From Modestobacter sp. VKM Ac-2985 (GTDB lineage Bacteria > Actinomycetota > Actinomycetes > Mycobacteriales > Geodermatophilaceae): a stretch of 64,000 nt of DNA. The DNA lies in NCBI RefSeq assembly GCF_026967925.1, contig NZ_JAPVBI010000001.1:558001-622000 (forward strand), in the 5' to 3' direction. Below are positions 14,708 through 59,862 of this stretch, in pieces. The first letter of the stretch is position 1. Each line of letters starts with the position of its first letter. The translations under genes and the position numbers were made by a program. The notes under the pieces are model-generated. The model had not been told where the DNA came from, did no database searches, and was given only the letters and a program-made list of their open reading frames with translations.

Positions 14708-16969
14708 TCAGGACGGCGCGGCAGCGTCTTCCGCATCGGCCAGGGCGACCGAGGTGATCCGGTGGACGGCGAAGGTGCGGCTCTCCCCGCGCCCCTCGTC
14801 GAACCCCTGCAGGAAGCCACCGGCCAGCGAGACCGGCTGGACGATCCGCTGGCTGCCGCTGCCCTGGGCGTCGACGTAGCCGAGCCAGACCGGCACGCCC
14901 TCGCGCACCGCCCGGCTCAGCAGCTCCAGCGTGCTCGCGGTCGTCACCCCGGGCACCTGGCGCACCGGTTCGGTGCGGCGGGCGGCGAGGGCGGTGTCCC
15001 CGGCCCGGATCTCCCGCACGGTCGCCGCGACGTCGTCGGGTGCGAGCGGGCGGGGGGCGATCGCCGCAGCAGCCGCACCGGGACGGCGACCGGCCGCCCG
15101 CGGTGGCGCCTTCGGTCGGGTCAGCACCGCGCCACCGGAGGACTCCCCGGCCGGCGCGTACCCCGCCGTGCGCAGCACGGTGAGCACCTCGTCGGCGCCC
15201 AGCCCGCTGACCAGGACGCCGGGGGCCAGCCGGCGCAGCTCCGCACCCGCGGTCCGCCGGTCGCTGAGCACCTGGGAGACCAGACCGTGGTCGTCGGAGC
15301 GGACGTAGCACTCGATCGCGCCCACCCGCAGCCGGCCGTGCTGGCGGGCCACGTCGTCGATCAGGAACTCCAGCGCCTGCGGCACGGGTGTGCGGGAGGC
15401 CCGGGTGAAGAAGTCCTGCAGCTCGCCGGCCGACCAGCCGGCGTCCAGCGCCCGTCGGATGCTCCCGTCGGAGACGCGGTAGACCGTGGCCCCGCCCGAG
15501 GACTCGACGTCGGCGACGACGGCGAGGGTGCCGGCCAGGTCGGCCACGAGCGGCCCGGGGGCGATCAGCGACAGGTCGGGCTGGGCGAGCACGTGGTCGA
15601 CCGGGGCCGGCAGCAGCCCGCGCATCGCGTCCGCGGCGTCGTCCTCCCCGCCGGTGAGCAGGCCGCGCCCGCCGCTGCTCAGCACCCCGCCGACCAGCAC
15701 CCCCAGCCGCTCGGCCTCGGCGAGCAGGTCGGGCACCGGGGTCAGCCGGTCGGCCCGCCGCGGGGTGCGCCAGCGCAGCAAGGCGAGCAGTTCCGGCGCC
15801 GTCAGGCCCTGGCCGGGCGGGAACTCGGCCAGCACGCCCAGCGCCGAGCGCCGCAGCGTGGGCGCGGTCTGCCGGACGACGTCGGGGGAGAGCACGTTGA
15901 CCGCCTTGCCGGCCACGTCGCGCTGACCGACCAGCGAGATCAGCCGGACGCTGGTCAGCCAGCCGGCGGCCAGCAGCGCCCACCGGTCGGCGAGGTCCTG
16001 CTCCCGCCACGCGTCGTACCCGCGGGTCGGCAGCCACTCGTCGCGCTGCGCGCCGCCGACGTCCAGCAGGCCGGCGGCGTGCGCGACCTCGACCAGGAAG
16101 GCGAGGTCGGCCTCCCCGATGCGCAGCTCCTTGGCCAGCCGCTTCTGGTCCCGCACGCCCAGCCCGCCGCTGCGCAGCAGCCCGGCCGGCTCCTCCTCCA
16201 GCGCGGTGAGCACGTCGTTCACCCGGCTGAGCACCTCGAGTGCGGCACCCGCGGCCTGCCGGTCGGCGATCGCCGGGTCGCGCTCGCTGACCTCCGGCTC
16301 GGGCCGCAGCCGCGGCGGGCCGAGCGGGCGGTCGCCGCGCAGGGCCAGGCCGATCTCGCGGGGCAGCTCCACGTTGACCGCGTCGATCCGGGCGAGCAGC
16401 CCGGCCTGCAGCAGCCGGCGGGCCGGGCTGAGCGACCCGGCGGTGGTGTCGGGGAGGTGGCCGACCGGGCGGTCACCGGCCAGCCGGTCGAGCACCGTGC
16501 GCTCGTCGGGGGCCAGGTCGGCCAGCGTGCCTGGCAGGTCGCGGGGGAGGGGGACCCGCAGGTCGGTGGCCCGGCGCCCGAGCCCGGCGGGGTAGCGGAC
16601 CGCCCGGCGCACCGGCTCGGGCGCGTGCAGGTCGTCGTCGCCCCAGAGCAGCGCCCGGGTGGTCAGCGTCCCGACCGCGGCGTCGACCACCTCGGTCGGG
16701 ACGTCGGGCAGCAGCGCGGGCAGCCCGGTGCGCGGGACGCCGTCGGTGGGGGAGAGCAGGACCGCGTCCAGCACCTGCAGGGTCGCCGCGTCGAGCTCGT
16801 CGAGCGCGCGGTCGACCGAGACGGGCACCGCGAGCCGGGTCGCCAACCCCACCACGTCCGACGGCGCCGGGCGCGCGACGTCGGGCCGGGCCACCAGGAG
16901 GGCGCCCAGCTGCTCGTCGGTGCGGGTGCGCAGCCAGGCGGCGAGCGTGGCGGGCTGGTCCGGGGGCAT
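14708..16969 (-). CDS. XPB/Ssl2-like N-terminal domain protein (helicase-associated)
   Basis: The 753-aa protein begins ATLAAWLRTRTDEQLGALL, a helical domain with many wHTH-like repeats, and carries the XPB/Ssl2-like conserved C-terminal region (LEFLIDDVARQHGRLRVGAIECYVRSDD, then QRIVQPVSLAGGFLQGFDEGRGESRTFAVHRI with a WYL-like feel). It has no Walker A or DEAD motif, so it is not a helicase itself. Homologues sit beside xpb in other actinomycetes, so a role as an XPB partner in DNA repair or transcription is a reasonable inference. TAGCGT (minus strand, 16977-16982) lies 7 nt before the ATG, fitting a leaderless mRNA. Confidence 0.8.
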   Translation of the reverse strand: MPPDQPATLAAWLRTRTDEQLGALLVARPDVARPAPSDVVGLATRLAVPVSVDRALDELDAATLQVLDAVLLSPTDGVPRTGLPALLPDVPTEVVDAAVGTLTTRALLWGDDDLHAPEPVRRAVRYPAGLGRRATDLRVPLPRDLPGTLADLAPDERTVLDRLAGDRPVGHLPDTTAGSLSPARRLLQAGLLARIDAVNVELPREIGLALRGDRPLGPPRLRPEPEVSERDPAIADRQAAGAALEVLSRVNDVLTALEEEPAGLLRSGGLGVRDQKRLAKELRIGEADLAFLVEVAHAAGLLDVGGAQRDEWLPTRGYDAWREQDLADRWALLAAGWLTSVRLISLVGQRDVAGKAVNVLSPDVVRQTAPTLRRSALGVLAEFPPGQGLTAPELLALLRWRTPRRADRLTPVPDLLAEAERLGVLVGGVLSSGGRGLLTGGEDDAADAMRGLLPAPVDHVLAQPDLSLIAPGPLVADLAGTLAVVADVESSGGATVYRVSDGSIRRALDAGWSAGELQDFFTRASRTPVPQALEFLIDDVARQHGRLRVGAIECYVRSDDHGLVSQVLSDRRTAGAELRRLAPGVLVSGLGADEVLTVLRTAGYAPAGESSGGAVLTRPKAPPRAAGRRPGAAAAAIAPRPLAPDDVAATVREIRAGDTALAARRTEPVRQVPGVTTASTLELLSRAVREGVPVWLGYVDAQGSGSQRIVQPVSLAGGFLQGFDEGRGESRTFAVHRITSVALADAEDAAAPS

Positions 16970-17035
16970 CCGCTCCACGCTACGTCGCGGGCCGGCGGGC
17001 CTGCTCGGGCGGCCGGGCTCTGTCACCATCCCGGG

Positions 17036-17554
17036 GTGCCCGCCCTCGACGACCCGCAGACCCGCACCGACCTGGCCGCGCTCCGGGCCGGCGCGCTGCG
17101 CTGGCTGGTCGGTGGCGTGGTCGCCGTCGTCCTGGGCTGGCTGCTGGGGGCCGCCGTCGTCCGGATCGCCGCCGACGGGGGTGCTCGGCCGCCGTTCGCC
17201 GGGCTGATGGCCGTGCTGCTCGTCGTCGGCGGGGTCGTCGTGGCGGTCATCGGGCTGGGTGCCTGGCTGCGCGCCCGCCGCTGGACCGCCGCCCTGGCCC
17301 GCGAGCCGTGGCAGCACGGGCGGTTGCGGATCGCCGGCCCGGCGCTGCTGCAGGTCGAGCCGGCCGGCTACGACGAGCTGACCGACGAGCCGCTGCGGCT
17401 GCGGCTGGTGTCCACGGCCGTCTGGCGCACCCGTGCCGTGCAGCGGCTGGACGGCGCCGAGGTGCGCTACGCCGAGGCCTCCCCGCGGGAGTGGCTGCTG
17501 ACCGCCGACGGCGCCGGCACGGTCTACGGCGCCCGGCGGGCCGACCGGCGGTGA
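17036..17554 (+). CDS. Two-helix membrane protein, function unknown
   Basis: The 172-aa product has two predicted membrane helices: WLVGGVVAVVLGWLLGAAVV near residues 23-42 and GLMAVLLVVGGVVVAVIGLGAW near 57-78. A cytoplasmic domain follows, with LRIAGPALLQVEPAGYDEL and REWLLTADGAGTVYGARRA, which looks beta-rich. I do not recognise the family. The GTG at 17036 has CACCAT at 17024-17029 six bases upstream and no Shine-Dalgarno site, so it is probably leaderless. It is divergent from the XPB-associated gene with about 65 bp between starts. Confidence 0.7.
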   Translation: MPALDDPQTRTDLAALRAGALRWLVGGVVAVVLGWLLGAAVVRIAADGGARPPFAGLMAVLLVVGGVVVAVIGLGAWLRARRWTAALAREPWQHGRLRIAGPALLQVEPAGYDELTDEPLRLRLVSTAVWRTRAVQRLDGAEVRYAEASPREWLLTADGAGTVYGARRADRR

Positions 17555-49600: not shown

Positions 49601-50572
49601 TCACCGCGGTTGGAGCAGGCGCCAGGCGGTCCAGGCGCTGGTGACCATGTCCCGCAGGTCGCGTCGCGCGCGGAAGCCGAGCTCCCGCTCGATCCGGTCG
49701 ACCGCGGCCACGACACGGGCCGGGTCCCCGGGCCGGCGGGCGGCGACGACCGGCGTGGTGTCCGCGCCGGTCACGTCCGCGATGACGCGGAGGACGTCGC
49801 GCACGCTGCAACCGGCCCCGGTGCCCACGTTGTAGGTGCCGCCGGGCGAGCCGGCGCTCAGCGCCCGCGCCGCGGCCAGGTGGGCGGCGGCGATGTCGGA
49901 GACGTGCACGTAGTCCCGGACGCCGGTGCCGTCGGGGGTGGCGTGGTCGTCGCCGAACACCACCGGGGGGTCGCCGGCGTCCAGGGCGGCGAAGACCATC
50001 GGCACCAGGTTGGCCGCGCCGGTGTCCCCGAGCCGGGGGTGCGCGGCGCCGGCCACGTTGAAGTAGCGCAGCGAGGTGGCGGCCAGCCCGTGCGCGGTGG
50101 CGCAGTCGCGCAGCACCCACTCGCTGATGAGCTTCGTCTGCCCGTAGGGCGAGAGCGGGAGGCACGGCGTGTCCTCGGTGACCGGGTCGGCGTCCGGGGC
50201 GCCGTAGACCGCGGCGCTGCTGGAGAACACGAACCGGCTCACCCCCGTGGCCCGGCAGCTCTCCAGCAGGGCGACCAGGCCCTCGACGTTCTCCGCGAAG
50301 TACCGGAGCGGATCGGCCACCGACTCCGCGACCGCCTTCTTGCCGGCCACGTGCACCACGCCCTGCACCGCGTGCTCGCGCAGCACCCGGCGGACCAGGC
50401 CACGGTCGCGGACCGACCCGACCTCCAGCGGGACCTCGGGCAGCCCGTCGAGCCTGCCGGCGTCGCCGCTGGACAGGTCGTCGAGCACCACCAGGCGCTC
50501 GCCCGCGGCGGCCATCGCGTGCACCACGTGTGCGCCGATGTAGCCGGCGCCGCCGGTGACCAGCCAGGTCAT
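49601..50572 (-). CDS. UDP-glucose 4-epimerase-like SDR enzyme (GalE type)
   Basis: The 323-aa protein is a short-chain dehydrogenase/reductase of the extended type: NAD motif TGGAGYIGAHV near residue 5, catalytic SSSAAVYG near 118 with YGQTK (Tyr-x-x-x-Lys) near 143, then LRYFNVAGAAHPRLGD, typical of GalE. It probably epimerises a UDP-sugar donor for the glycosyltransferase encoded two genes upstream. It is the last gene of the ten-gene operon and overlaps the PIG-L gene (ATGA). Confidence 0.88.
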   Translation of the reverse strand: MTWLVTGGAGYIGAHVVHAMAAAGERLVVLDDLSSGDAGRLDGLPEVPLEVGSVRDRGLVRRVLREHAVQGVVHVAGKKAVAESVADPLRYFAENVEGLVALLESCRATGVSRFVFSSSAAVYGAPDADPVTEDTPCLPLSPYGQTKLISEWVLRDCATAHGLAATSLRYFNVAGAAHPRLGDTGAANLVPMVFAALDAGDPPVVFGDDHATPDGTGVRDYVHVSDIAAAHLAAARALSAGSPGGTYNVGTGAGCSVRDVLRVIADVTGADTTPVVAARRPGDPARVVAAVDRIERELGFRARRDLRDMVTSAWTAWRLLQPR

Positions 50573-51279
50573 GCCCGGACCGCCAGCACGTCCAGCGCCG
50601 CCGACCCCGCCAGCAGCACCTCCGGCAGGTCGGCCAGCGCGGCGGCCATGCCGGCCTCGCCGCCGAACTGGAAGCCCAGCTGGCTGGCGTAGCACGCGCA
50701 GGCCTCGGCCCGCCGGGCCGGCACCTGGGGCAGCTCCACAGGGGAGAGGCCCGCGGGCAGCGCCTCCCCGGGGACGGCGTCGGGCCGGCGGAGCACGTAG
50801 GGGCTGTCCCGCCACCACAGCGTGGGCCGGTCCAGCGCTGCCACCGCGCGCAGCACCTGGAGGTGGTCCACGTGCGCGCCGAGGGCCTGCGGGGCCAGCC
50901 ACAGGTCGGCGTCCCGACCGGCGAGCTGCGCCGCGACCTCGCGCCAGACGTCGTCGCCGGGGTGCACGCCGGCGAAGAGGTCCGGCGCGCTGGTGTAGCC
51001 GCGGTGCGGGGCCTCGGGCAGGTCCAGGTCGACCGCCGTCGCGTCCAGCACGGCCATCGCCGCGGCGTTCTCCGCCCGGCGCAGGGCCAGGTAGTCGACG
51101 TCGGCGGGCAGGCCCTTGTCCAGCTGGCAGGCCAGCGCGAAGCCGGTGGGGTCGGGCACGCTGCGGGTGAAGCAGGTGACCACGGTGACGTCGTGACCCG
51201 CGTCGGCGAGCCCGGCCAGGGTCGCCCCGGCGGAGAAGGCGGCGTCGTCCAGGTGCGGGCTGACCGCGAGCACGCGCAT
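50569..51279 (-). CDS. PIG-L family N-acetyl-sugar deacetylase
   Basis: The 236-aa enzyme has SPHLDDAAFSAGA near residue 7, the zinc-binding H-x-D-D motif, and ALGAHVDHLQVLRAV with the second His-x-x-His group near 130. PIG-L/LmbE enzymes deacetylate N-acetylglucosaminyl compounds, for example MshB in mycothiol synthesis. In this operon it should remove an acetyl group from the product of the glycosyltransferase gene upstream, whose stop codon it overlaps (TGATG). Confidence 0.88.
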   Translation of the reverse strand: MRVLAVSPHLDDAAFSAGATLAGLADAGHDVTVVTCFTRSVPDPTGFALACQLDKGLPADVDYLALRRAENAAAMAVLDATAVDLDLPEAPHRGYTSAPDLFAGVHPGDDVWREVAAQLAGRDADLWLAPQALGAHVDHLQVLRAVAALDRPTLWWRDSPYVLRRPDAVPGEALPAGLSPVELPQVPARRAEACACYASQLGFQFGGEAGMAAALADLPEVLLAGSAALDVLAVRA

Positions 51280-52487
51280 CAGAGCAGGTGCGCCGCGGAC
51301 CGGAACCGGCAGGTCGGGTCCACCGTCGCCGGGAGCGTCCAGTCCAGGTCCGGGGCCGTGCCGGCCAGCTCGGTGTAGACGGCGTCGATGCTGCGGGCCA
51401 GCACCGGCCAGGAGTAGAGCCGGCGCACCTCCTCCAGCGCGGTGGTGGCCAGCCGGGTGCGCAGCGCGGCGTCGCCGAGCAGCCGGTCCAGCTCCTTCCG
51501 CAGGCCGGCGACGTCGCCGGGTTCGTGCAGCAGCCCGTTCTCCTCGTGTCGGAGGCAGTCCACGACGCCGACGCTGTCGGTGCTCACCGTGGGCAGTCCG
51601 CTGGCCATCGCCTCCAGCAGGGTGTTGCTGAACCCCTCGCTGTAGGTCGGGCTGACGAAGACGTCGGCCGCGCGGTAGACCGCCGGCGCGTCGTCCGGGG
51701 GCACGTAGCCGAGGAAGGTGGTGCGCCCGTCGGCGCGGGCCCTGGCCTCGTCCAGGTCCGGGCCGATGCCGGAGACGACCAGCCGGACTCCCTCGGGCAG
51801 CGCCTCCAGCAGGTCGAGCACGCCCTTGCGCCGGTCGACCCGGCCGTGGAAGAGCAGCACCGGCGGGTCGGCCAGGCTGCCCAGCGGCCGGTCGCCCGGG
51901 GTGAAGCGGTCGGTGTCGGTGGCGCCGGGCACGATCCGGAACCGCGCCGGGTCGGTGCCCAGGTTGCCGACCACCTCGTCCCGGAAGCTGGCGCTGCCGA
52001 TCAGCACCGCGCCGGCGTGGTCGAGGACGGTGTGCATCGCGTCGGCGTGCGTGCTGCAGCAGGTGCCCACCCAGTGCCCGTCCCCGCCCTGGATGCTCAC
52101 CAGGTTCGGCAGGCCGGTCCGCCGGGACGCCTCCAGCACGGCCAGCCCCGGCGGGTAGCCGTACTGGGCGTGCAGCACGTCGAAGGGACGCTGCTCGTGC
52201 AACTCGACGACGGTGCGCACGATCTCGGCGATGTCGCCCTCCCAGTCGGCGGGGACGACGGTCTCGCCGCGGCTGGGCAGGGCGTGCACCTCGACGCCGG
52301 CGGGCACCCGGTCGGCGGGTGGGACGCCGCCGCCGTAGACCCGGGTGCCGGCCTCGTCGTCCCGGTACTGGCTCACCAGGGTGACGTCGTGGCCCAGCGC
52401 CACCAGCTCGCGGAGCAGGTTCTCCGCGTAGACGCTCATCCCGCTGACCGCCGGCCAGTAGCGGCGGCTGACGAAGCAGATCCTCAT
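51279..52487 (-). CDS. Glycosyltransferase family 4 (MshA-like)
   Basis: The 402-aa GT-B protein begins MRICFVSRRYWPAVSGMSVYAENL, has the Rossmann hinge VLLFHGRVDRRKGVLDLLEAL near residue 210, and the nucleotide-sugar loop SPTYSEGFSNTLLEAMASGLPTV near 288 with the E-x7-E motif. The closest well-known relatives of this layout attach N-acetylglucosamine to inositol phosphate (MshA). With Ino1 and PIG-L in one operon, an inositol glycoside is a natural guess, but the acceptor is not shown by the sequence. A 10-nt gap separates it from the isomerase gene. Confidence 0.85.
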   Translation of the reverse strand: MRICFVSRRYWPAVSGMSVYAENLLRELVALGHDVTLVSQYRDDEAGTRVYGGGVPPADRVPAGVEVHALPSRGETVVPADWEGDIAEIVRTVVELHEQRPFDVLHAQYGYPPGLAVLEASRRTGLPNLVSIQGGDGHWVGTCCSTHADAMHTVLDHAGAVLIGSASFRDEVVGNLGTDPARFRIVPGATDTDRFTPGDRPLGSLADPPVLLFHGRVDRRKGVLDLLEALPEGVRLVVSGIGPDLDEARARADGRTTFLGYVPPDDAPAVYRAADVFVSPTYSEGFSNTLLEAMASGLPTVSTDSVGVVDCLRHEENGLLHEPGDVAGLRKELDRLLGDAALRTRLATTALEEVRRLYSWPVLARSIDAVYTELAGTAPDLDWTLPATVDPTCRFRSAAHLL

Positions 52488-52497
52488 GATGCTGTCC

Positions 52498-53328
52498 TCA
52501 TGACTCGGCCTTCCTCAGCAGCTCGATGGAGCGGGGCACCATCTGGTGCGCCCGGTGACCGTCCCGGGAGAGCTCGAGGGTGACCAGCCGCTGGTAGCCG
52601 GCTGCGCTGAGTGCAGCCAGCACCGCCGGCAGGTCGACGTCGCCCTCGTCCAGCGGCAGGTGGTCGTGCACGCCGCGGCGCATCCCCTCGACCGCGACCG
52701 TGCCCAGGCGGTCGGCGAACGCGGCCACCGCCTCCTCCGGGGCGTACCGGCCGCTGACCACGCAGTGCCCGGTGTCCAGCGCGAGGGTCAGCCCCGGCAC
52801 CTCGGCGGCGAGCCGGGCCCAGTCGTCGGCGTCCTCGACGAGCATCCCCGGCTCCGGTTCGACGGCCAGGTCGTAGGAGCGCCCGCCGTGGCTGTCGACC
52901 AGGGCCCGGACGCCGTCGACCAGCCAGCGCCACGCGTCAGCCCGGTCGACCCCGGGCTGGGGCACGCCGGCCCAGAAGCTCACCGCCTCGGCCCGCAGCA
53001 CCTCGGCCAGGTCGCAGGCCAGTCGCAGGTAGGCCAGCCGGCGCTCCCGGCCCGCGGAGCTGGGGTTGACCAGCGTGGGCTCGTGCTTGACCCGCGGGTC
53101 GAGCAGGAAGCGCGCGCCGGTCTCGACGACCACGTCCAGGCCGAGGGCGTCGCAGCGGGCCCGCACCCGCTCGGCCTGGGCGAAGGCGTCCTCGGCGAAC
53201 GGGTCCAGGTGGACCACGTCCAGGGTGAGGGCCACCCCGGCGTAGCCGGTGTCGGCGAGGAAGGTCAGCGCGTCGTCGAGCCGGTGGGAGGTGAGCCCGT
53301 TCGTGTTGTAGGCGTACCGCAGGCTCAT
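52498..53328 (-). CDS. TIM-barrel sugar phosphate isomerase/epimerase
   Basis: The 276-aa protein is an AP-endonuclease-2-like TIM barrel: SLRYAYNTNGLTSHRLDDAL start, YAGVALTLDVVH, the metal ligand region DLAVEPEPGMLVED near residue 165, LALDTGHCVVSG near 190, and LVTLELSRDGHRAH with the final Glu and His near 255. Such enzymes isomerise or epimerise sugars and inositols (IolE, IolI, EboE-like). It starts within the YcaO stop codon (ATGA). The likely substrate is a keto-sugar or keto-inositol made by the operon's dehydrogenase. Confidence 0.82.
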   Translation of the reverse strand: MSLRYAYNTNGLTSHRLDDALTFLADTGYAGVALTLDVVHLDPFAEDAFAQAERVRARCDALGLDVVVETGARFLLDPRVKHEPTLVNPSSAGRERRLAYLRLACDLAEVLRAEAVSFWAGVPQPGVDRADAWRWLVDGVRALVDSHGGRSYDLAVEPEPGMLVEDADDWARLAAEVPGLTLALDTGHCVVSGRYAPEEAVAAFADRLGTVAVEGMRRGVHDHLPLDEGDVDLPAVLAALSAAGYQRLVTLELSRDGHRAHQMVPRSIELLRKAES

Positions 53329-54767
53329 GAGGCCACCGCCAGCGCCGCCACGTGCCGGCCGGGTTCGCGGTAGAGCGCGTACAGCTCGCCGACGGCGCGG
53401 TCGGCGCCGGCCCGGTCGAACCAGGCCGGTCCGCCCAGCCGGTCCTCCGCCTCGGCGGTCAGGTGCACGCGTGCCCAGCCGCCCGGGTCGGCGCCCACGA
53501 CGGCGAGCCCGGCACCCGGGCCCTCCCGGTCGAGCAGCCGGCGGACGCCGCGCTCGCCGATCCGGCCGTAGGACATCGTCTCGGCCTCCAGGCCGGGGAC
53601 GAGCACCTTGGCCGCGACCGCCTCGCCGATCGAGGGCTGCAGGTCGACCAGCACGTCGAGGCCCTCGGCGGCCAGCACGTCGGCCGGGTCGCCGCCGCCG
53701 GCGGGCAGGTCGGTGAACGCGACGGTGCGGCGGCGGGAGAACACCGACCCCCGCAGCAGGTCGGTCAGCCGGTCGGTGCCCAGCCGGGTCCAGCCGAGCA
53801 TCGCCTGCAGGGCGCGGTCCTCCTCGACCATCCGCTCCGGTGGGTGCCCGTGCAGCCACTGGTCCAGGTAGCCCGGTGGGGTCGCCGCGGCGACCGCGTC
53901 CAGCGGGCCGTGCATGAACGCCTTGCGGGCGCGGGCGGCGGCGAACTCGTACAGCGCCTTGCGGACGGCGGCGTCCGGGTCGGGGGAGGCGGCCTCCCCA
54001 CACGCGGTGACCATCATCGGCGCGGGCTCGGACCCGTCCCGCGAGCAGCCGACGGCGTAGACGGAGACGACGCCGTGCTCGGTGCTCGCCAGCTTGACCA
54101 GGACGTCGATGCCGGCTGCGTCCAGCCGGTCGAGCAGCGCCAGCGCGTCGGGATCGCGCAGCCCGGCGAGGTCGAGCACCACGCCCTGGTCCAGCGCGCG
54201 GAAGGTGGTGGCGTTGCCGTCGCGCTGCAGCAGCTCCAGCAGCGCGTGCGAGACCGCCCGGTCGGCGTCGAAGGCCGCGCCCTGGCCGTTGGTGATCACG
54301 GTGGTGAGCCAGCCGTCGGGCGGCGGGTCGCCGGGCAGCTCCTCCGGGGCGGAGACGACCAGCTCGGCGGGGACGAGCACCTGCTCGCCGTCCCGGGTGC
54401 GGGCCATCGGCAGCCACTGCAGCGGCCGGTCGTCGTCGTAGGCGCTGCCGGCCTCGAGGCACAACGTGCGGGGGTCGACCACCCGGTCGCGGCCCTCGGT
54501 GCGGGCCAGCTCGCGGTAGGAGCCGTGCACCCGGTCGAGGCAGGCGTGCGCGCGGATCGACAGCGCCATCTCGGCCATCTCGCCGAGCGCGCCGGTGCGG
54601 GCCTCCTCGCGAGTGGCGCCGTAGCCCAGCCCGCTGCCGCCGGGGTGCGCCGGGCTCGTGGCCAGGAAGGCGCTGTGCAGCGGCACGTCGAGGACGTCCA
54701 GCCCCTCGATCGGGAACTCCTCGACGCCGGGCGGGAACGAGTCGAGGTACCGCTGGGCGGTGCTCAC
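53325..54767 (-). CDS. YcaO-domain enzyme without a precursor peptide
   Basis: The 480-aa protein has the three YcaO ATP-binding blocks: GYGATREEARTGALGEMAEM (about residues 48-67), SHALLELLQRDGNAT with ExxxRD (about 170-184), and AVRKALYEFAAARARKAF (about 260-277). YcaO enzymes use ATP to activate an amide or carboxylate oxygen, making azolines, thioamides or amidines, and in 6-thioguanine synthesis they act on a small molecule. No precursor peptide, E1-like or dehydrogenase partner is nearby, so a small-molecule substrate is likely. Overlaps: GTGA with the MBL gene, ATGA with the isomerase gene. Confidence 0.85.
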   Translation of the reverse strand: MSTAQRYLDSFPPGVEEFPIEGLDVLDVPLHSAFLATSPAHPGGSGLGYGATREEARTGALGEMAEMALSIRAHACLDRVHGSYRELARTEGRDRVVDPRTLCLEAGSAYDDDRPLQWLPMARTRDGEQVLVPAELVVSAPEELPGDPPPDGWLTTVITNGQGAAFDADRAVSHALLELLQRDGNATTFRALDQGVVLDLAGLRDPDALALLDRLDAAGIDVLVKLASTEHGVVSVYAVGCSRDGSEPAPMMVTACGEAASPDPDAAVRKALYEFAAARARKAFMHGPLDAVAAATPPGYLDQWLHGHPPERMVEEDRALQAMLGWTRLGTDRLTDLLRGSVFSRRRTVAFTDLPAGGGDPADVLAAEGLDVLVDLQPSIGEAVAAKVLVPGLEAETMSYGRIGERGVRRLLDREGPGAGLAVVGADPGGWARVHLTAEAEDRLGGPAWFDRAGADRAVGELYALYREPGRHVAALAVAS

Positions 54768-55648
54768 AGCTCGGCCAGCGGGATCGGGGCGGCGTCCGGC
54801 CGGCCGGCGAGCAGCCGCTGCACCAGGTGCACGACGTGGTCGGTGGTCACGCCGGGCACCAGCTCGAACGGCGTGGCCACGGCGCCGAACTCCAGCTCGG
54901 CGACGACCGCCAGGTACTCGCGCAGCTCGCCGTGGGAGAGCGGGATCTGGGCGTGGAACGCCTTGTGCGCGCTCAGGCCCACCGGGTTGCCGTCGCCGTC
55001 CAGGTCGACCTTGAGCGAGTCACCGCAGAACAGCACCCCGCGCCGGCTGTCGTGCAGCACCGAGTGCCCGGGGAAGTGCCCGCCGGTGCGGTGCAGGGTC
55101 AGGTCGGGGGCCAGCTCCAGGACGTCGTCGGCGGGCCAGGTGACCCGGAAGGCCTTGGTCCACTCCAGGTCGCGCACCCCCACGCAGACCGTGGCCGGCT
55201 CCAGCTCCAGCTGCAGCTGCCACAACGCGCCGTAGCCGTGCACGTGGCTGGAGGCCAGCACGTCGAACCCGCCCAGTTCGGTCGCCATCCGGCGCAGCTC
55301 GGCCAGCATCTCCGGCGTGTACCAGGGGGCGCACTCGAAACCGACCAGCCCGGCGTCGGTCTCGATCACCCAGCCGCGGCTGTCCAGCCCGAACCGCGGT
55401 TCGGTGCCGAACTCGGTGATGCCGGCGAGTGCGGTGGGCCGCCAGAAGCCGGTCACCAGCTCGTCGGCCTGCTTGGGCGTGACGAACTCGAAGCCGTGCT
55501 CGGGGAGGGCGTTGCGCACGTCGGCGCAGACCGGGCAGACCTGCGGGCCGGGGGCCGGCCAGCGCTGCCAGTGCCCGCAGTTGGTGCAGGCGAAGGCGGG
55601 CAGGTCCGGCAGCAGGCCGCGGTAGGGGTTGGTGGCTGGTGCGCTCAT
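54764..55648 (-). CDS. MBL-fold metallohydrolase with N-terminal zinc ribbon
   Basis: The 294-aa protein starts with a rubredoxin-like zinc ribbon, FACTNCGHWQRW and QVCPVCADVRNALP (two CxxC pairs, near 19-45), then an MBL domain with SSHVHGYGALWQLQ near 130 and HRTGGHFPGHSVLHDSRRGVLFCGDSLKVD near 185. The HxHxDH motif is incomplete: SSHVHGYG has H-x-H, but the usual following D-H is replaced by G-Y. This may be a one-metal or altered enzyme, or a redox or sulfur-handling variant. Substrate unknown. ATGA overlaps with its upstream partner. Confidence 0.8.
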   Translation of the reverse strand: MSAPATNPYRGLLPDLPAFACTNCGHWQRWPAPGPQVCPVCADVRNALPEHGFEFVTPKQADELVTGFWRPTALAGITEFGTEPRFGLDSRGWVIETDAGLVGFECAPWYTPEMLAELRRMATELGGFDVLASSHVHGYGALWQLQLELEPATVCVGVRDLEWTKAFRVTWPADDVLELAPDLTLHRTGGHFPGHSVLHDSRRGVLFCGDSLKVDLDGDGNPVGLSAHKAFHAQIPLSHGELREYLAVVAELEFGAVATPFELVPGVTTDHVVHLVQRLLAGRPDAAPIPLAEL

Positions 55649-56676
55649 GCGGGCAGCTCTTCTCGGGCGGGGACGGGCAGGGCAGTTCGATCCAGGGCGG
55701 CCCGGTCCAGGGCGGTGACCAGCAGCCGGTGCAGCGCCAGGTCGCGGGCAGCGGGGAACGGCCAGGGCGTCGTCCCGGCGACGGCGGCGCCGAAGCCGGC
55801 GAACTGGGCGGTGAACGGGTCGGTGCCGGCGAACGGGACGTCGACCGGCTCGGGGCGGAACAGGGTGAGCGAGCCGCCGGCGGTCTGGCCCATCGTGTCC
55901 ACGGCGACCGCGGTGCCCCGGGTGCCGACCACCTCCAGCCGGCGTCGGGGGAGGGCGTCGGGGCAGTTGTAGGCGACGTGCAGGTCGACCAGCACGCCAC
56001 CGGTGGTGCGGCCGATGAGCAGCGCGCCGTCGTCGACCGGGTAGCGCTGCACCCGGCGCTGCAGCAGCGCGGTGAGCTCGACGACGTCCTCACCGAGCAG
56101 GACGCCGGCCAGGTCCAGGCCGTGCGGGGCGAGGTCGATCGCGGCGCCGCCACCGGCCCGTACCGGGTCGACGCGCCAGTTGTCGTGCGGCCGGCCGTCG
56201 GGTGACCAGTCGGCCGGCAGCCAGCAGCAGTAGACGACCCGCACGGCGGTGACCGTGCCCAGCTCGGGCACCAGCTCGCGCAGCCGCACGTGCGCGGGGT
56301 GCCAGCGCTGGTCGTAGGCGGTGCCGAGCAGCACGCCGGCCCGGTCGGCCGCGGCGACCGCGGCCTCGGCGTCGAGGACGTCGGCGGCCAGCGGCTTCTC
56401 GCACAGCACCGCGACGCCCGCCGCGGCGGCCGCCTCGACCACCTGCCGGTGCGCGGAGTTCGGCACCGCCACGTAGACGGCGTCGAGCCCGGGTGTGGCG
56501 AGGAAGGCCGCCAGGTCGGTCGTCGCCCGTGAGCCGGCGGGCATCCGCGCCAGGGCGTCGGGGTCGCGGTCGTGCAGGGCGACCAGGCGGGCACCGGGCA
56601 CCTGCCGCAGCCCGGGGACGGCGTGGTCGCGGGCCACCCAGCCGCAGCCGGCCACACCCCAGCCGACGTCGCTCAC
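55645..56676 (-). CDS. Gfo/Idh/MocA family dehydrogenase
   Basis: The 343-aa protein has GVAGCGWVARDHAVPGLRQV (NAD site, near residue 6), CEKPLAADVLDAEAAV with the EKP motif near 90, and DLAPHGLDLAGVLLGED, where the family's active-site His lies near 180. It is a likely inositol or UDP-sugar dehydrogenase. The substrate is not defined, but Ino1 in the same operon supports an inositol derivative. GTG 56676 overlaps the methyltransferase stop (GTGA); GTG 56679 would add one residue. Confidence 0.85.
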   Translation of the reverse strand: MSDVGWGVAGCGWVARDHAVPGLRQVPGARLVALHDRDPDALARMPAGSRATTDLAAFLATPGLDAVYVAVPNSAHRQVVEAAAAAGVAVLCEKPLAADVLDAEAAVAAADRAGVLLGTAYDQRWHPAHVRLRELVPELGTVTAVRVVYCCWLPADWSPDGRPHDNWRVDPVRAGGGAAIDLAPHGLDLAGVLLGEDVVELTALLQRRVQRYPVDDGALLIGRTTGGVLVDLHVAYNCPDALPRRRLEVVGTRGTAVAVDTMGQTAGGSLTLFRPEPVDVPFAGTDPFTAQFAGFGAAVAGTTPWPFPAARDLALHRLLVTALDRAALDRTALPVPAREELPA

Positions 56677-57716
56677 CACTCCTCCGGCAGGTCGACGAGC
56701 AGTCGTCGGCGGGCGGCGTCGGCGGGCAGCAGCTCGGGCCAGCGGGCCGGCAGGTGACCCGAGCGGGGGCCGTACTCGGCGGCGTACCGGTCGCTGGGCC
56801 AGCGCAGCTCGCCGCCGACGTAGAGCGGGTTGGCCCGCAGCGGCCCGAGCGGCTCACCCAGGTCGACCGGCGCGGGTGCGCGCAGGTCACCGGCGACCAG
56901 GGCGATGGCCTCGCTGCTGGTCAGCCGGTCGGCCGGAGCCGGCACGGGCGGGCGCGCGGCCAGCAGCGCGGCGGTGAGCTCCGCGTCGTCGTAGAGCACG
57001 CTCGCGCCGAGCAGCCCGGCGTACTCCTGCGGGCTGAGCGGCTCACCGGCCGACACCGTGTCGGCGACGTGCGCGTGCCCGACGACGACGGTGCCGCCGG
57101 GCCCGGCGAGTGCGTGCATCGCGGCCGCCGCGGCCGGCTTGTCCCGCAGGAAGTAGAACGCGTCGTGACAGGTGACGTACGCCGGGCGGGGCACCTGCAG
57201 GTCCGGCGCCGCGGTCAGGTCGGCGCACACGTACCGGGCGCCGGGGCAGACGAAGCGCTGGGCGAGCCACAGCTTGGACCACACGACGTCCACGCCGACC
57301 AGCTCCGGCACACCGCGCCGGGACAGCTCGCGCAGCTGGGTGCCGATCCCGCAGGCGACGTCGACCACCGGCCGGTCGCCCGGCCAGTGCTGCCCGAGCA
57401 GCGCCAGCGTCGCCAGGTGTGTGGGGTCGGACCAGCGGTGGGCGAAGTAGTCGCCCACCCGCCCCATGCCCAGCAGCGCCATCGCCTCGCGCAGGCTGCG
57501 CGCGGCAGGCACCCGGGCCAGCTGCTCCGGCGGGGGTGCGGGCTGGGTCCACCAGTCGTCGGCGTCGGCGAACAGCGCGATCCGGGCCCGGTCGACCTCG
57601 CCGTCGGCCAGCAGGCGGGCGACCCGGTCCTGCAGCTCCTCCCGGCCGGCCCGGGCGAACGGGATGCCGTCGACGACCGGCACCCCGGTCGCGGTCAGGC
57701 CCGTCGCCGTGCTCAC
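56673..57716 (-). CDS. SAM-dependent methyltransferase
   Basis: The 347-aa protein has a class I fold: motif I VVDVACGIGTQLRELSRRGVPELVGVDV near residue 118, YVCADLTAAPDL (motif II), AYVTCHDAFYFLRDKPAAAAAMHAL (motif III) and GGTVVVGHAHVADTVSAGEPLSP. The 90-residue N-terminal part (DRARIALFADADDWWTQPAPP) and C-terminal AEYGPRSGHLPARWPELL are family-specific. It presumably methylates O, N or S of the product. GTGA overlaps on both sides. Confidence 0.8.
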   Translation of the reverse strand: MSTATGLTATGVPVVDGIPFARAGREELQDRVARLLADGEVDRARIALFADADDWWTQPAPPPEQLARVPAARSLREAMALLGMGRVGDYFAHRWSDPTHLATLALLGQHWPGDRPVVDVACGIGTQLRELSRRGVPELVGVDVVWSKLWLAQRFVCPGARYVCADLTAAPDLQVPRPAYVTCHDAFYFLRDKPAAAAAMHALAGPGGTVVVGHAHVADTVSAGEPLSPQEYAGLLGASVLYDDAELTAALLAARPPVPAPADRLTSSEAIALVAGDLRAPAPVDLGEPLGPLRANPLYVGGELRWPSDRYAAEYGPRSGHLPARWPELLPADAARRRLLVDLPEEW

Positions 57717-58615
57717 AACCCGGCCGCGGTGAGGACGTCGAGGTGGAAGGCCTGCACGGGTCCGGCGTGCACGAGCTCCAGGTCGTCCAGCGCCTGGGCG
57801 GCGGTGAAGGCGGCCGCCTGCGCGTGGTGGTGCACCTGGAGCACCCGGTCGAGCACGTCGGCGGCGTGGAAGGCCTGCGACTCCGGTGCCACGGCGTCGC
57901 CCCGCAGCAGCAGCACCTCACGCAGCCGGGCCGCCAGTGGGGTCGGCAGCGCCGCGAGCTCGCGTTCCTCCAGCGTGCCGATCACCCGGTCCAGGGCGCC
58001 GCCGAGCAGCACCTCCCCGGCGAAGCCGGCGTCGGGCAGCGCCACGTTGTGCAGGTGGTGGGCCAGCCCGACCAGGAAGGGTGCGACCGGGTCCGCGCCC
58101 ACCACCGGCGCCAGCAGGCAGCCGTAGACGGCGACGGTGAGGCAGTGGTCGCCGTGGCTCTCCGGGGGCTCCACGACCACCCGCGGCTTGCCGGGGCTGG
58201 TCGCGCCGGCCCGCGGCTGGGCGTTCAGCGACACCGCCAGGGGCGGCGGCGGACCGGCCGGGCGCTGGGCGGCCAGGGCCGTCCGCAGCTGCTCGGCCAG
58301 CCCAGCGTCGACCGCCCCGGCGACCTCGTCGAATGCCCGCCGCAGCACCTGCTGCGCCTCGTCCTCGGCGAGCCCCGCCCCGGTCAGCACCGTCGCGTCG
58401 ATGCCGGCCAGCCGGACCCGGGCCACGGCCGCCGCCGTCTCGGACAGGGCGACCGAGGCAGCGTCCTCACCCTGGACCAGCCGGGCCCAGGCCCGGCCGA
58501 ACGCCTGCTCGGCCAGCGAGCCGTGCGCCCCTGCCACCCGGATCCGCTTGGCGTCCCCGATCCCGGCGAGCAGCGGGCGCAGCGCCGCGAGGGCCGGCAG
58601 CGCCGTCGTCGTCAC
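57713..58615 (-). CDS. HD-domain-like protein (degenerate HD motif), function unknown
   Basis: The 300-aa protein has an all-helical fold. The N-terminal third is alanine-rich with repeated helices (LAEQAFGRAWARLVQGEDAASVALSE, about 30-60). The metal region near 165-205 has SHGDHCLTVAVYG and FLVGLAHHLHNVALPDAGF; the HD pair reads HH/HN, so catalytic activity may be altered. A final AADVLDRVLQVHHHAQA supplies the last aspartate. It may be a phosphatase acting on the inositol phosphate, but this is inference. GTG 58615 overlaps the Ino1 stop. Confidence 0.6.
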   Translation of the reverse strand: MTTTALPALAALRPLLAGIGDAKRIRVAGAHGSLAEQAFGRAWARLVQGEDAASVALSETAAAVARVRLAGIDATVLTGAGLAEDEAQQVLRRAFDEVAGAVDAGLAEQLRTALAAQRPAGPPPPLAVSLNAQPRAGATSPGKPRVVVEPPESHGDHCLTVAVYGCLLAPVVGADPVAPFLVGLAHHLHNVALPDAGFAGEVLLGGALDRVIGTLEERELAALPTPLAARLREVLLLRGDAVAPESQAFHAADVLDRVLQVHHHAQAAAFTAAQALDDLELVHAGPVQAFHLDVLTAAGL

Positions 58616-59862
58616 CGGGAGCCGGTGACGACGTCGCTCCCGGTCTGCGGTGCCCCGCTGCTCAGCCACTCCATGAGGACGGACTCCTGGCGGTGCAGCG
58701 CGTGCTCGGGGGTGCTGCCGTCAGCGGTGATCGGGGCCTTGAAGAACCAGCCCAGGTGCCGCTGGATGCCGCCCTCACCGCGCTGCTGGGCCAGGTCGAG
58801 CAGCCGGACGATCTCCACCGCGAGCGGGGCGGCCAGGATCGAGTCCCGGCACTGGAAGTCGACCTTGATCTGCATCCGCTGGCCGAGGAAGCCGATCAGG
58901 TCGATGGCGTCCCAGGCCTCCTTCTGGTCACCGCGGGGCCGGTAGTAGTCGATCCGCACGACGTGGTCCTCGACCGGGTAGCCGAGGATCGAGTCGAGCA
59001 CCTTGCCCTTGGTCTGCAGCTTGCTCTCCAGCGACGACGGGTCGTCCAGCGCGAGCCCGTCCCGGTTGCCCAGGATGTTCGTGGAGTACCAGCCCTCGAC
59101 GGTCAGCGCGCGGCTGCGGAAGGCCGGCGCGAGCACCGTCTTCATCATCGTCTGGCCGGTCTTGCCGTCCTTGCCCGCGATCGGGACGTTGCGCTGCTCG
59201 GCCAGCTGGACCAGCGCCGGCACGTCGGCCGACAGCGAGGGGGTGAAGTTGGCGTACCCGACGTCCTCGCAGATCGCGGCGTAGGCGTAGACCATCGCCG
59301 GGGTGATGGCCCCGTCGTCGGCGTCCAGCCCGGCCTCGAAGGCCTCCGGGGTCTGCAGTGCGGGCGCCGCGGGGTCGGGCCAGCGCTCGGTGGAGGCGAG
59401 GTTCATCAGCACCAGGCCGTCGAGCTGCCGCTCCTCCCGGAACCGGCGCAGGTCGGCACGGACGGCGTCGGCCTGGGCGCGCCGGCCCTCGGCCAGCACG
59501 ACGTTGCCGCCGGTGACGTTGCGGCAGAAGTCGGCGTCCCCGGCCGCGGGCCACGGGGTGATCTCGGACAGGAGTGGCTGGGCCTGTCGCAGCTGGCGGT
59601 CGTCCAGGACGCCGTGCTGCTCGGCCGCCTTGTAGAGGTCGGACCCGTCGAGGTCCCAGCCGCCGACGACCAGGTCGTCGTAGGCCACGAGGCCGGTGGC
59701 CTCCTCGACGGGGACGTCGCCGATCTTCAGACCGGCGAGAGGGAGGCCGTCGGCGGCGACGGCACCGAGCCGCAGCAGCTCGAGGCCGGCGATCGCGGTG
59801 GTCGCGACCGCACCTCCGAGCCCGACGATGGCGATGCCGACGCGGCGTGGGGACTGTGTCAC
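58612..59862 (-). CDS. Inositol-3-phosphate synthase family protein
   Basis: The 416-aa enzyme converts glucose 6-phosphate to myo-inositol 3-phosphate. The N-terminal NAD site is GIAIVGLGGAVATTAIAG near residue 10. Further blocks: DGLVLMNLASTERWPDP near 168, IAGKDGKTGQTMMKTVLAPAF (phosphate loop with conserved lysines) near 245, and GWYSTNILGNRDG. Sequence blocks match bacterial Ino1 proteins, but exact substrate needs test. GTG 59862 has AGGAGCTCC upstream and is the first gene of the operon. The genome should have another Ino1 for mycothiol and phosphatidylinositol. Confidence 0.88.
   Translation of the reverse strand: MTQSPRRVGIAIVGLGGAVATTAIAGLELLRLGAVAADGLPLAGLKIGDVPVEEATGLVAYDDLVVGGWDLDGSDLYKAAEQHGVLDDRQLRQAQPLLSEITPWPAAGDADFCRNVTGGNVVLAEGRRAQADAVRADLRRFREERQLDGLVLMNLASTERWPDPAAPALQTPEAFEAGLDADDGAITPAMVYAYAAICEDVGYANFTPSLSADVPALVQLAEQRNVPIAGKDGKTGQTMMKTVLAPAFRSRALTVEGWYSTNILGNRDGLALDDPSSLESKLQTKGKVLDSILGYPVEDHVVRIDYYRPRGDQKEAWDAIDLIGFLGQRMQIKVDFQCRDSILAAPLAVEIVRLLDLAQQRGEGGIQRHLGWFFKAPITADGSTPEHALHRQESVLMEWLSSGAPQTGSDVVTGSR

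Follow-up and report, generated by a model that had tools for sequence, protein, structure and literature searches.

YcaO enzymes are mainly known as tailors of peptides and proteins, mycosporine-like sunscreens are made with a sugar phosphate cyclase of the dehydroquinate (DHQ) synthase family and an ATP-grasp ligase, and the breakdown of sugars and inositol often involves Gfo/Idh and xylose-isomerase-like proteins. In Nostoc the ebo cluster has been linked with scytonemin, a sunscreen, and a role in moving the scytonemin monomer was proposed (PMC6282210, available part of the text), and a cyclitol-derived compound has been proposed for ebo (PMC5133447, likewise in the part available). This report deals with a gene block of Modestobacter sp. 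VKM Ac-2985 (Actinomycetota, Geodermatophilaceae; assembly GCF_026967925.1) located on the minus strand at positions 49,601–59,862 of the window, i.e., the whole 64,000-nt stretch analyzed (contig NZ_JAPVBI010000001.1, positions 558,001 to 622,000). The fixed unit comprises nine genes encoding, in order, an inositol-3-phosphate synthase (ino1), an HD-like protein, a methyltransferase (MT), a Gfo/Idh/MocA oxidoreductase, a metallo-beta-lactamase-fold protein (MBL), a YcaO protein, a xylose-isomerase-like TIM barrel (TIM), a family 4 glycosyltransferase (GT4) and a PIG-L family deacetylase; galE, which follows them, is a frequent neighbor only. The block is mobile and likely encodes a sugar-cyclitol pathway. 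Its product, chemistry and role are what we infer, and on balance we lean towards a mobile, self-contained cassette whose product would be a small cyclitol-aminosugar metabolite that probably stays inside the cell.

The adjacency of these genes, which the preliminary description had singled out, is more than chance: 58 of the 72 distinct loci that no contig end cuts contain all nine in one identical order, and the full block is found in Actinomycetota, Pseudomonadota and Acidobacteriota, while a Bacteroidota plasmid (Hymenobacter) carries eight of the nine genes, two of them in pieces. The HD-like protein, used as the marker for genome searches, was detected in 18/117 genomes of relatives (own genome included), in 13/396 genomes sampled from the phylum (seven strong matches, own included, and six weak), in 4/337 genomes of the class of Skermanella (two strong, the central genome included) and in one of 347 genomes of the phylum of the Pyrinomonadaceae genome, which is the central genome itself. 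A scan of one genome per species (84,980 species) yielded at least 67 loci, a floor given that two exact eight-residue patterns were used. With 17 fetched loci, five more, four from plasmids and the window, and after 11 duplicate pairs were merged, 83 distinct loci were gathered; 11 are cut by a contig end and the other 72 are the basis of the counts, with genes called by a codon model.

Six genes (HD, Gfo/Idh, YcaO, TIM, GT4, and PIG-L) are present in all 72 uncut loci except for six split loci, all from Actinomycetospora, which contain ino1 to YcaO only. A TIM profile gave a strong match in five of these six genomes (none in the sixth, a metagenome assembly), and TIM, GT4 and PIG-L stand together as a second block in 5/5 fetched split genomes, so that the genes co-occur even when apart. 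A regulator-like, IclR-looking gene, named by reading (IclR_C appears in the flank tally), comes after YcaO at the split (L068:15512-16393, L088:15473-16396). The remaining genes are accessory. MBL is missing in three loci (two Methylobacterium plasmids and genome G808, perhaps the same species as one of them), MT in three (Hymenobacter, Quadrisphaera, in which MBL has also moved, and one Kineococcus) and ino1 in three (two Kineococcus, one of them also without MT, and Goekera). In both ino1-less Kineococcus loci TIM is reversed and lies upstream. The Kineococcus TIM genes turned round upstream of HD (L063:8711-9682, L087:8762-9709) show only about 35% identity to the window TIM. Compared over 24 representatives, the nine proteins have pairwise distances that correlate at 0.79–0.93, which shows joint inheritance and not transfer, as vertical descent would give the same result. 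Neighboring genes are at most 60 nt apart in 190 of 208 pairs (26 loci; a few pairs include a non-block gene) and six pairs show gaps of 183–413 nt. In the Hymenobacter plasmid the annotated Gfo/Idh and the called GT4 are each in two pieces (L149:11927-12975 and 16196-17436), and this copy may be decaying or contain sequence errors; the Gfo/Idh of Rubrobacter marinus (L077:12102-13129) was also called as two overlapping pieces.

Mobility follows from four plasmids and from the adjoining flanks, directly or via galE, of eight out of ten block-free Modestobacter genomes. The HD protein occurs in four of 72,556 plasmid records (two Methylobacterium, Roseomonas haemaphysalidis, and Hymenobacter volaticus, a member of the Bacteroidota isolated from air); plasmid searches with YcaO (at 1e-5) returned these four records and no others, and those with GT4 (at 1e-40) the same four. 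In the window the block is flanked by serC on one side and, on the other, by galE and an ATP-grasp-like gene (a name that comes from reading) which is retained in block-free genomes. Among ten Modestobacter genomes without an HD protein match, the outer flanking genes are directly adjacent in five (L134–L137, L140), separated by galE alone in three (L138, L139, L141) and by other DNA in two (3.9 kb, L142:2707-6638, and 1.2 kb, L143, respectively). Thus galE is present independently of the block, and in other genera it is absent nearby, on the opposite strand or distant, which rules out its membership as a fixed tenth gene, as had been proposed. It encodes a UDP-glucose 4-epimerase (49,601–50,572; TIGR01179, 340.4 bits, over the cut-off). 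Epimerase-type proteins are also the commonest flanking family (10/149 flanking proteins), and a loose link of the block to sugar-nucleotide supply is possible. A tree built from six core proteins does not place the two alphaproteobacterial groups as sisters; the branch in question has a support of only 84 by a quick method, and two long branches meet.

The ten minus-strand open reading frames (ORFs) were confirmed, as was their tight packing. Overlaps of 4 nt join ino1/HD, HD/MT, Gfo/MBL, MBL/YcaO, YcaO/TIM, and PIG-L/galE; MT and Gfo overlap by 7 nt (4 nt if the second GTG is the start), GT4 and PIG-L by 1 nt, and the largest intergenic gap, 10 nt, separates TIM from GT4. A sigma-70 promoter scan gave no sites, and the sole terminator-like site is no better than chance. 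Of the family names first given, nine stand by Pfam and/or NCBIfam; the exception is the HD-like protein, whose Pfam match to HD_3 has an insignificant E of 0.16, and the zinc ribbon of MBL falls below the Pfam cut-off.

In the proposed route, Ino1 (58,612–59,862) would convert glucose 6-phosphate into inositol phosphate. Its assignment as an Ino1-type synthase holds, both in Pfam (8.5e-63 and 8.4e-35) and by the best solved relative in profile searches (7nwr, 1.4e-121), and it is far from the mycothiol equivalog (mycothiol_INO1 of NCBIfam, 42 of 638 bits). The HD-like protein (57,713–58,615), judged from its model, is likely phosphatase-like and would be the phosphatase of the route: its family profile finds HD-domain proteins in the PDB (best E 2.4e-5), and the second half of the predicted structure (predicted local distance difference test, pLDDT, 89.9) matches human HDDC2 with a Foldseek probability of 1.00 but an E of 0.12. 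The metal site H...HD...D is altered, with H157, H186, and D253 invariant and the D of HD replaced by His in 20/20 relatives. An oxygenase of the MIOX or PhnZ type was considered and is not preferred, HDDC2 being a better match than the oxygenase TmpB (only E 1.7, probability 0.16). The Gfo/Idh protein (55,645–56,679, Pfam), whose best profile match is 1,5-anhydro-D-fructose reductase (8.6e-52) with inositol dehydrogenases ranking below, would oxidize the cyclitol, and TIM (52,498–53,328; Pfam 3.8e-34), of the isomerase/epimerase/dehydratase type, would isomerize or dehydrate it. MT (56,673–57,716; an S-adenosylmethionine-dependent enzyme by Methyltransf_25, 2.5e-7), with weak profile matches to small-molecule methyltransferases, and MBL (54,764–55,648; Lactamase_B 1.8e-6) may tailor the product in most lineages. 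MBL has weak profile matches only, N-terminal Cys pairs visible in the alignment and an incomplete first metal motif (HxH..G instead of HxHxDH). Methylation, previously taken as a step of the pathway, is not a necessary one, MT being absent from 3/72 loci.

The best solved profile match of TIM is IolE, followed by MJ1311, UlaE, and Art22, and its model (pLDDT 95.1) structurally best matches ketose 3-epimerases. Relatives about 50% identical are found on Streptomyces linear plasmids; two of these loci, once opened (L163, L164), proved to be actinobacterial ebo clusters with the order ino1, SCO3242 prenyltransferase, TIM, EboA, TatD, EboE, and phosphodiesterase, and both lie a few genes from large non-ribosomal peptide synthetase genes. 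Among the matches listed, block and ebo proteins are 37–42% identical for Ino1 and 47–51% for TIM. When seven proteins from one ebo locus were compared with the block proteins of 31 representatives, only Ino1 and TIM matched, apart from a weak EboE-TIM match (1.6e-6), and neither prenyltransferase nor EboA, EboB (TatD), EboE, or EboF is among the nine block genes. The block is therefore not an ebo cluster, only Ino1 and TIM being common to both. The pairing of Ino1 with this TIM in two otherwise different clusters suggests, by analogy, that TIM may act on a cyclitol; the Actinomycetospora arrangement, in which TIM accompanies GT4 and PIG-L and not ino1, weighs on this suggestion.

GT4 (51,279–52,487; Pfam, profile and alignment) would add a sugar, most likely N-acetylglucosamine, to the cyclitol, and PIG-L (50,569–51,279; Pfam 2.6e-13 and profile) would take off the acetyl group. 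The best solved relatives of GT4 are Tll1590, then 3c4q/3c48, which we take to be MshA, and BshA. Its C-terminal tail CR[FY]....HLL is kept in 17/17 aligned proteins. In alignments with the MshA of three hosts, GT4 retains donor-side residues, namely the Arg and the Lys of GRxxxxK together with ExxxxxxxE. The Tyr of MshA HSHY aligns with HAQY of GT4, while the GLGK and AHTLAKVKN stretches have no counterpart; the acceptor-phosphate residues of MshA are presumably Lys78, Tyr110, Thr134, and Arg154. PIG-L is closest to antibiotic-sugar deacetylases (6iiy, 2.5e-29; teicoplanin deacetylase, 1e-28; MshB only 6e-4), with PHLDD and HxDH kept in 16 aligned proteins. Of the echo of MshA/MshB pointed out for this pair, the family relationships are supported; a reaction directly like that of MshA is not supported, because GT4 does not conserve the acceptor region. 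A mycothiol variant was rejected on this ground, on the score of GT4 with the curated MshA model (69.8 of 462.5 bits, below the cut-off) and on the hosts, five of 12 having no MshA over the cut-off (Aerophototrophica, Skermanella, R. marinus with a best score of 323 of 462.5 bits, Pyrinomonadaceae, and Paeniroseomonas). The Modestobacter genome encodes its own MshA elsewhere (637.7 bits), and no MshC or MshD family member is found among the ten genes (Pfam, NCBIfam).

YcaO (53,325–54,767) has, as first described, a full domain (PF02624, 1.4e-50; 172.9 bits against a Pfam cut-off of 25.7). Its nearest solved structure is MJ1094 (2.5e-26), entered there as uncharacterized, for which we assume a role in thioamidation. 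The ExxER motif deviates: E178 and R182 are kept and Gln occupies the place of E202 of Escherichia coli YcaO in 18/18 proteins, where the other YcaOs aligned have Glu; one residue has changed and the domain itself is retained. Residues E199, E202, and R203 of the E. coli enzyme presumably have Mg/ATP roles; an E202A variant of it is in use (PMC13063428, available part). In the block, YcaO would spend ATP on the N-acetyl amide, the sole amide of the proposed route, or on the keto/enol group of the cyclitol. A precursor peptide gene has no room inside the window block, and no flanking family of at least 50 aa is common to more than four lineage groups in the non-plasmid loci compared; a comparison of short ORFs in 1.2-kb flanks gave many matches resembling GC-rich low-complexity sequence. 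TfuA is not among the ten genes (Pfam) and is present anywhere in only 2/16 hosts, weak evidence since in E. coli a YcaO forms thioamides without TfuA (PMC13063428, in the same part). The block does not look like a recognizable cluster for a ribosomally synthesized and post-translationally modified peptide (RiPP), in that its genes are tightly packed, TfuA is rare and no linked precursor was found among flanking families of at least 50 aa.

Other readings of the block deserve consideration. An inositol-based low-molecular-weight sulfur compound (a mycothiol-like thiol or thioamide antioxidant), with YcaO sulfurating the pseudo-disaccharide, would accord with the resemblance of GT4 and PIG-L to the MshA/BshA and deacetylase steps and with MJ1094 as the nearest solved YcaO (TIGR03266, 68.4 bits); however, no MshC-like ligase, sulfur carrier or TfuA is found among the ten genes, an MshA scoring over the cut-off is already present in seven of the 12 hosts and the SagD model scores higher, so that this proposal appears rather unlikely. 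The named relatives of YcaO act on peptides or proteins, and the six long gaps among the 208 gene pairs could suit a YcaO which modifies a host protein or an unlinked peptide while the sugar genes decorate the same target. The packing within the window and the lack of a widely shared flanking family argue against such a target, to which we give little probability.

A mycosporine-type UV screen, in which an inosose would be dehydrated to an enol-ketone, O-methylated and condensed with an amine by YcaO, finds support in the IolE match of TIM, in the UV-repair genes beside the block on the Roseomonas plasmid and in R. marinus, and in host names evoking desert, crust, stone or air (Hymenobacter itself came from air). 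Yet by structure TIM matches ketose 3-epimerases best, the loci of Hymenobacter, Quadrisphaera, and one Kineococcus have no MT, and neither a DHQ-synthase-family cyclase nor an ATP-grasp ligase is among the ten genes (Pfam); such a screen seems improbable. Least of all do we expect a catabolic operon for inositol or glycosides: IolE and inositol dehydrogenases do appear among the matches of TIM and Gfo/Idh, but the block includes the biosynthetic Ino1, GT4 and an ATP-using YcaO, and its flanks brought up neither an uptake system nor a regulator as a fixed partner.

The neighbors of the block bear on the possible use of a cyclitol-aminosugar metabolite, which may serve to protect the cell from damage to its DNA by UV, desiccation or related stresses. 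From 30 loci, as many as three genes per side were collected (155 proteins); the 149 proteins from the 29 non-window loci were scanned, and of 197 families the tally covers the 25 commonest. In these flanks no precursor peptide, transporter or regulator proved to be a fixed companion. DNA-repair genes of the uracil-DNA glycosylase (UDG), spore photoproduct lyase (SPL) and Fpg/Nei families flank 8/29 loci, all eight being among the 14 outside the class Actinomycetes; the count covers three families picked post hoc and loci which are not independent. UDG-superfamily genes lie near the block in Paeniroseomonas and Skermanella and on both Methylobacterium plasmids; in L150 the UDG gene overlaps PIG-L. 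Divergent alphaproteobacterial UDGs were observed at L150:18835-19464, L152:18840-19352, L154:17258-17914, L101:18222-18842, L072:7858-8391, and L081:7817-8476; they are 54–70% identical to that of L150 and share the motif PHPSPT[YF]VCTSP (6/6). In Skermanella, Paeniroseomonas, and also G808, the UDG next to the block has the lowest score of all the UDGs in the genome, a hint of a special subfamily. Two SPL genes stand beside the block of the Roseomonas plasmid (L151:20592-22716), with uvsE at a distance of about 10 kb on the opposite side, one stands beside that of R. marinus (L077:5139-6191), and Fpg/Nei-type glycosylases directly follow PIG-L in two other genomes of the R. marinus family group. 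Host genomes (n = 11) contain only 4–7 UDG, 0–2 SPL, and 1–5 H2TH matches each, so chance neighbors should be rare. It is conceivable, if doubtful, that the block is a cross-phylum, plasmid-borne chemical shield of DNA against UV or desiccation damage: its YcaO, whose ATP/Mg site is altered, would act on a sugar-cyclitol substrate and not on a peptide, and repair enzymes (DNA glycosylases or SPLs) would be its partners in several lineages.

Several observations weigh against these proposals on the metabolite and its use. The three repair families flank none of the 15 loci in the class Actinomycetes, and the link was drawn post hoc; habitats were judged from host names, some of which suggest desert, crust, stone or air, and a tick isolate, a marine Rubrobacter, and soil Streptomyces do not fit. 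Transporters of the major facilitator superfamily account for 7/149 flanking proteins, so that export is possible. The acceptor region of MshA is not kept in GT4 and glucosaminyl-inositol is thus not assured, and the peptide-cyclizing SagD model of NCBIfam scores YcaO slightly higher than the McrA-glycine thioamidation model TIGR03266 (79.9 against 68.4 bits, both below cut-off). An ino1 profile was blank in four genomes whose loci show no ino1 (Goekera and three Kineococcus, of which one is contig-cut at that place), with the limit that it gives the second, mycothiol-type Ino1 of the Modestobacter genome just 36.6 bits and could miss such an enzyme; the lack of ino1 in the two uncut Kineococcus loci and Goekera implies that in these the cyclitol either has another source or is a compound other than inositol.

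The view that no described cluster has this set of genes accords with the open-licence literature, among the entries listed (titles and abstract openings), though other literature may hold a description; in the same literature nothing was found that pairs YcaO with inositol-3-phosphate synthase or Geodermatophilaceae with YcaO, or that deals with Art22. If the sugar-cyclitol reading is true, a YcaO in such a pathway without a recognizable peptide would widen the chemistry of this family. The distribution over four phyla and plasmids, together with the repair neighbors (uvsE, SPL, UDG, and Fpg/Nei), makes a stress-protection role directly testable, and the common Ino1-TIM pair offers a handle on the ebo product as well.

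Compared with mycothiol, TfuA-YcaO RiPP, ebo, and mycosporine clusters, the block falls outside the known kinds considered. Like the mycothiol and bacillithiol pathways (MshA/MshB, BshA/BshB), it joins GT4 and PIG-L to an inositol phosphate synthase and keeps the donor-side residues of GT4, whereas it lacks a ligase and the MshA acceptor region, its Ino1 belongs to another branch and some hosts have no MshA over the cut-off. With the YcaO enzymes that form thioamides, amidines or azolines it shares a full YcaO domain, nearest among solved structures to MJ1094, but it has Gln for the second Glu of ExxER and neither TfuA nor a linked peptide gene that could be found. Like ebo, it is an operon without an assigned product, spread over phyla, with related Ino1 and TIM proteins; in contrast, no YcaO, GT4, PIG-L, HD, or MBL is annotated in the two opened ebo loci.

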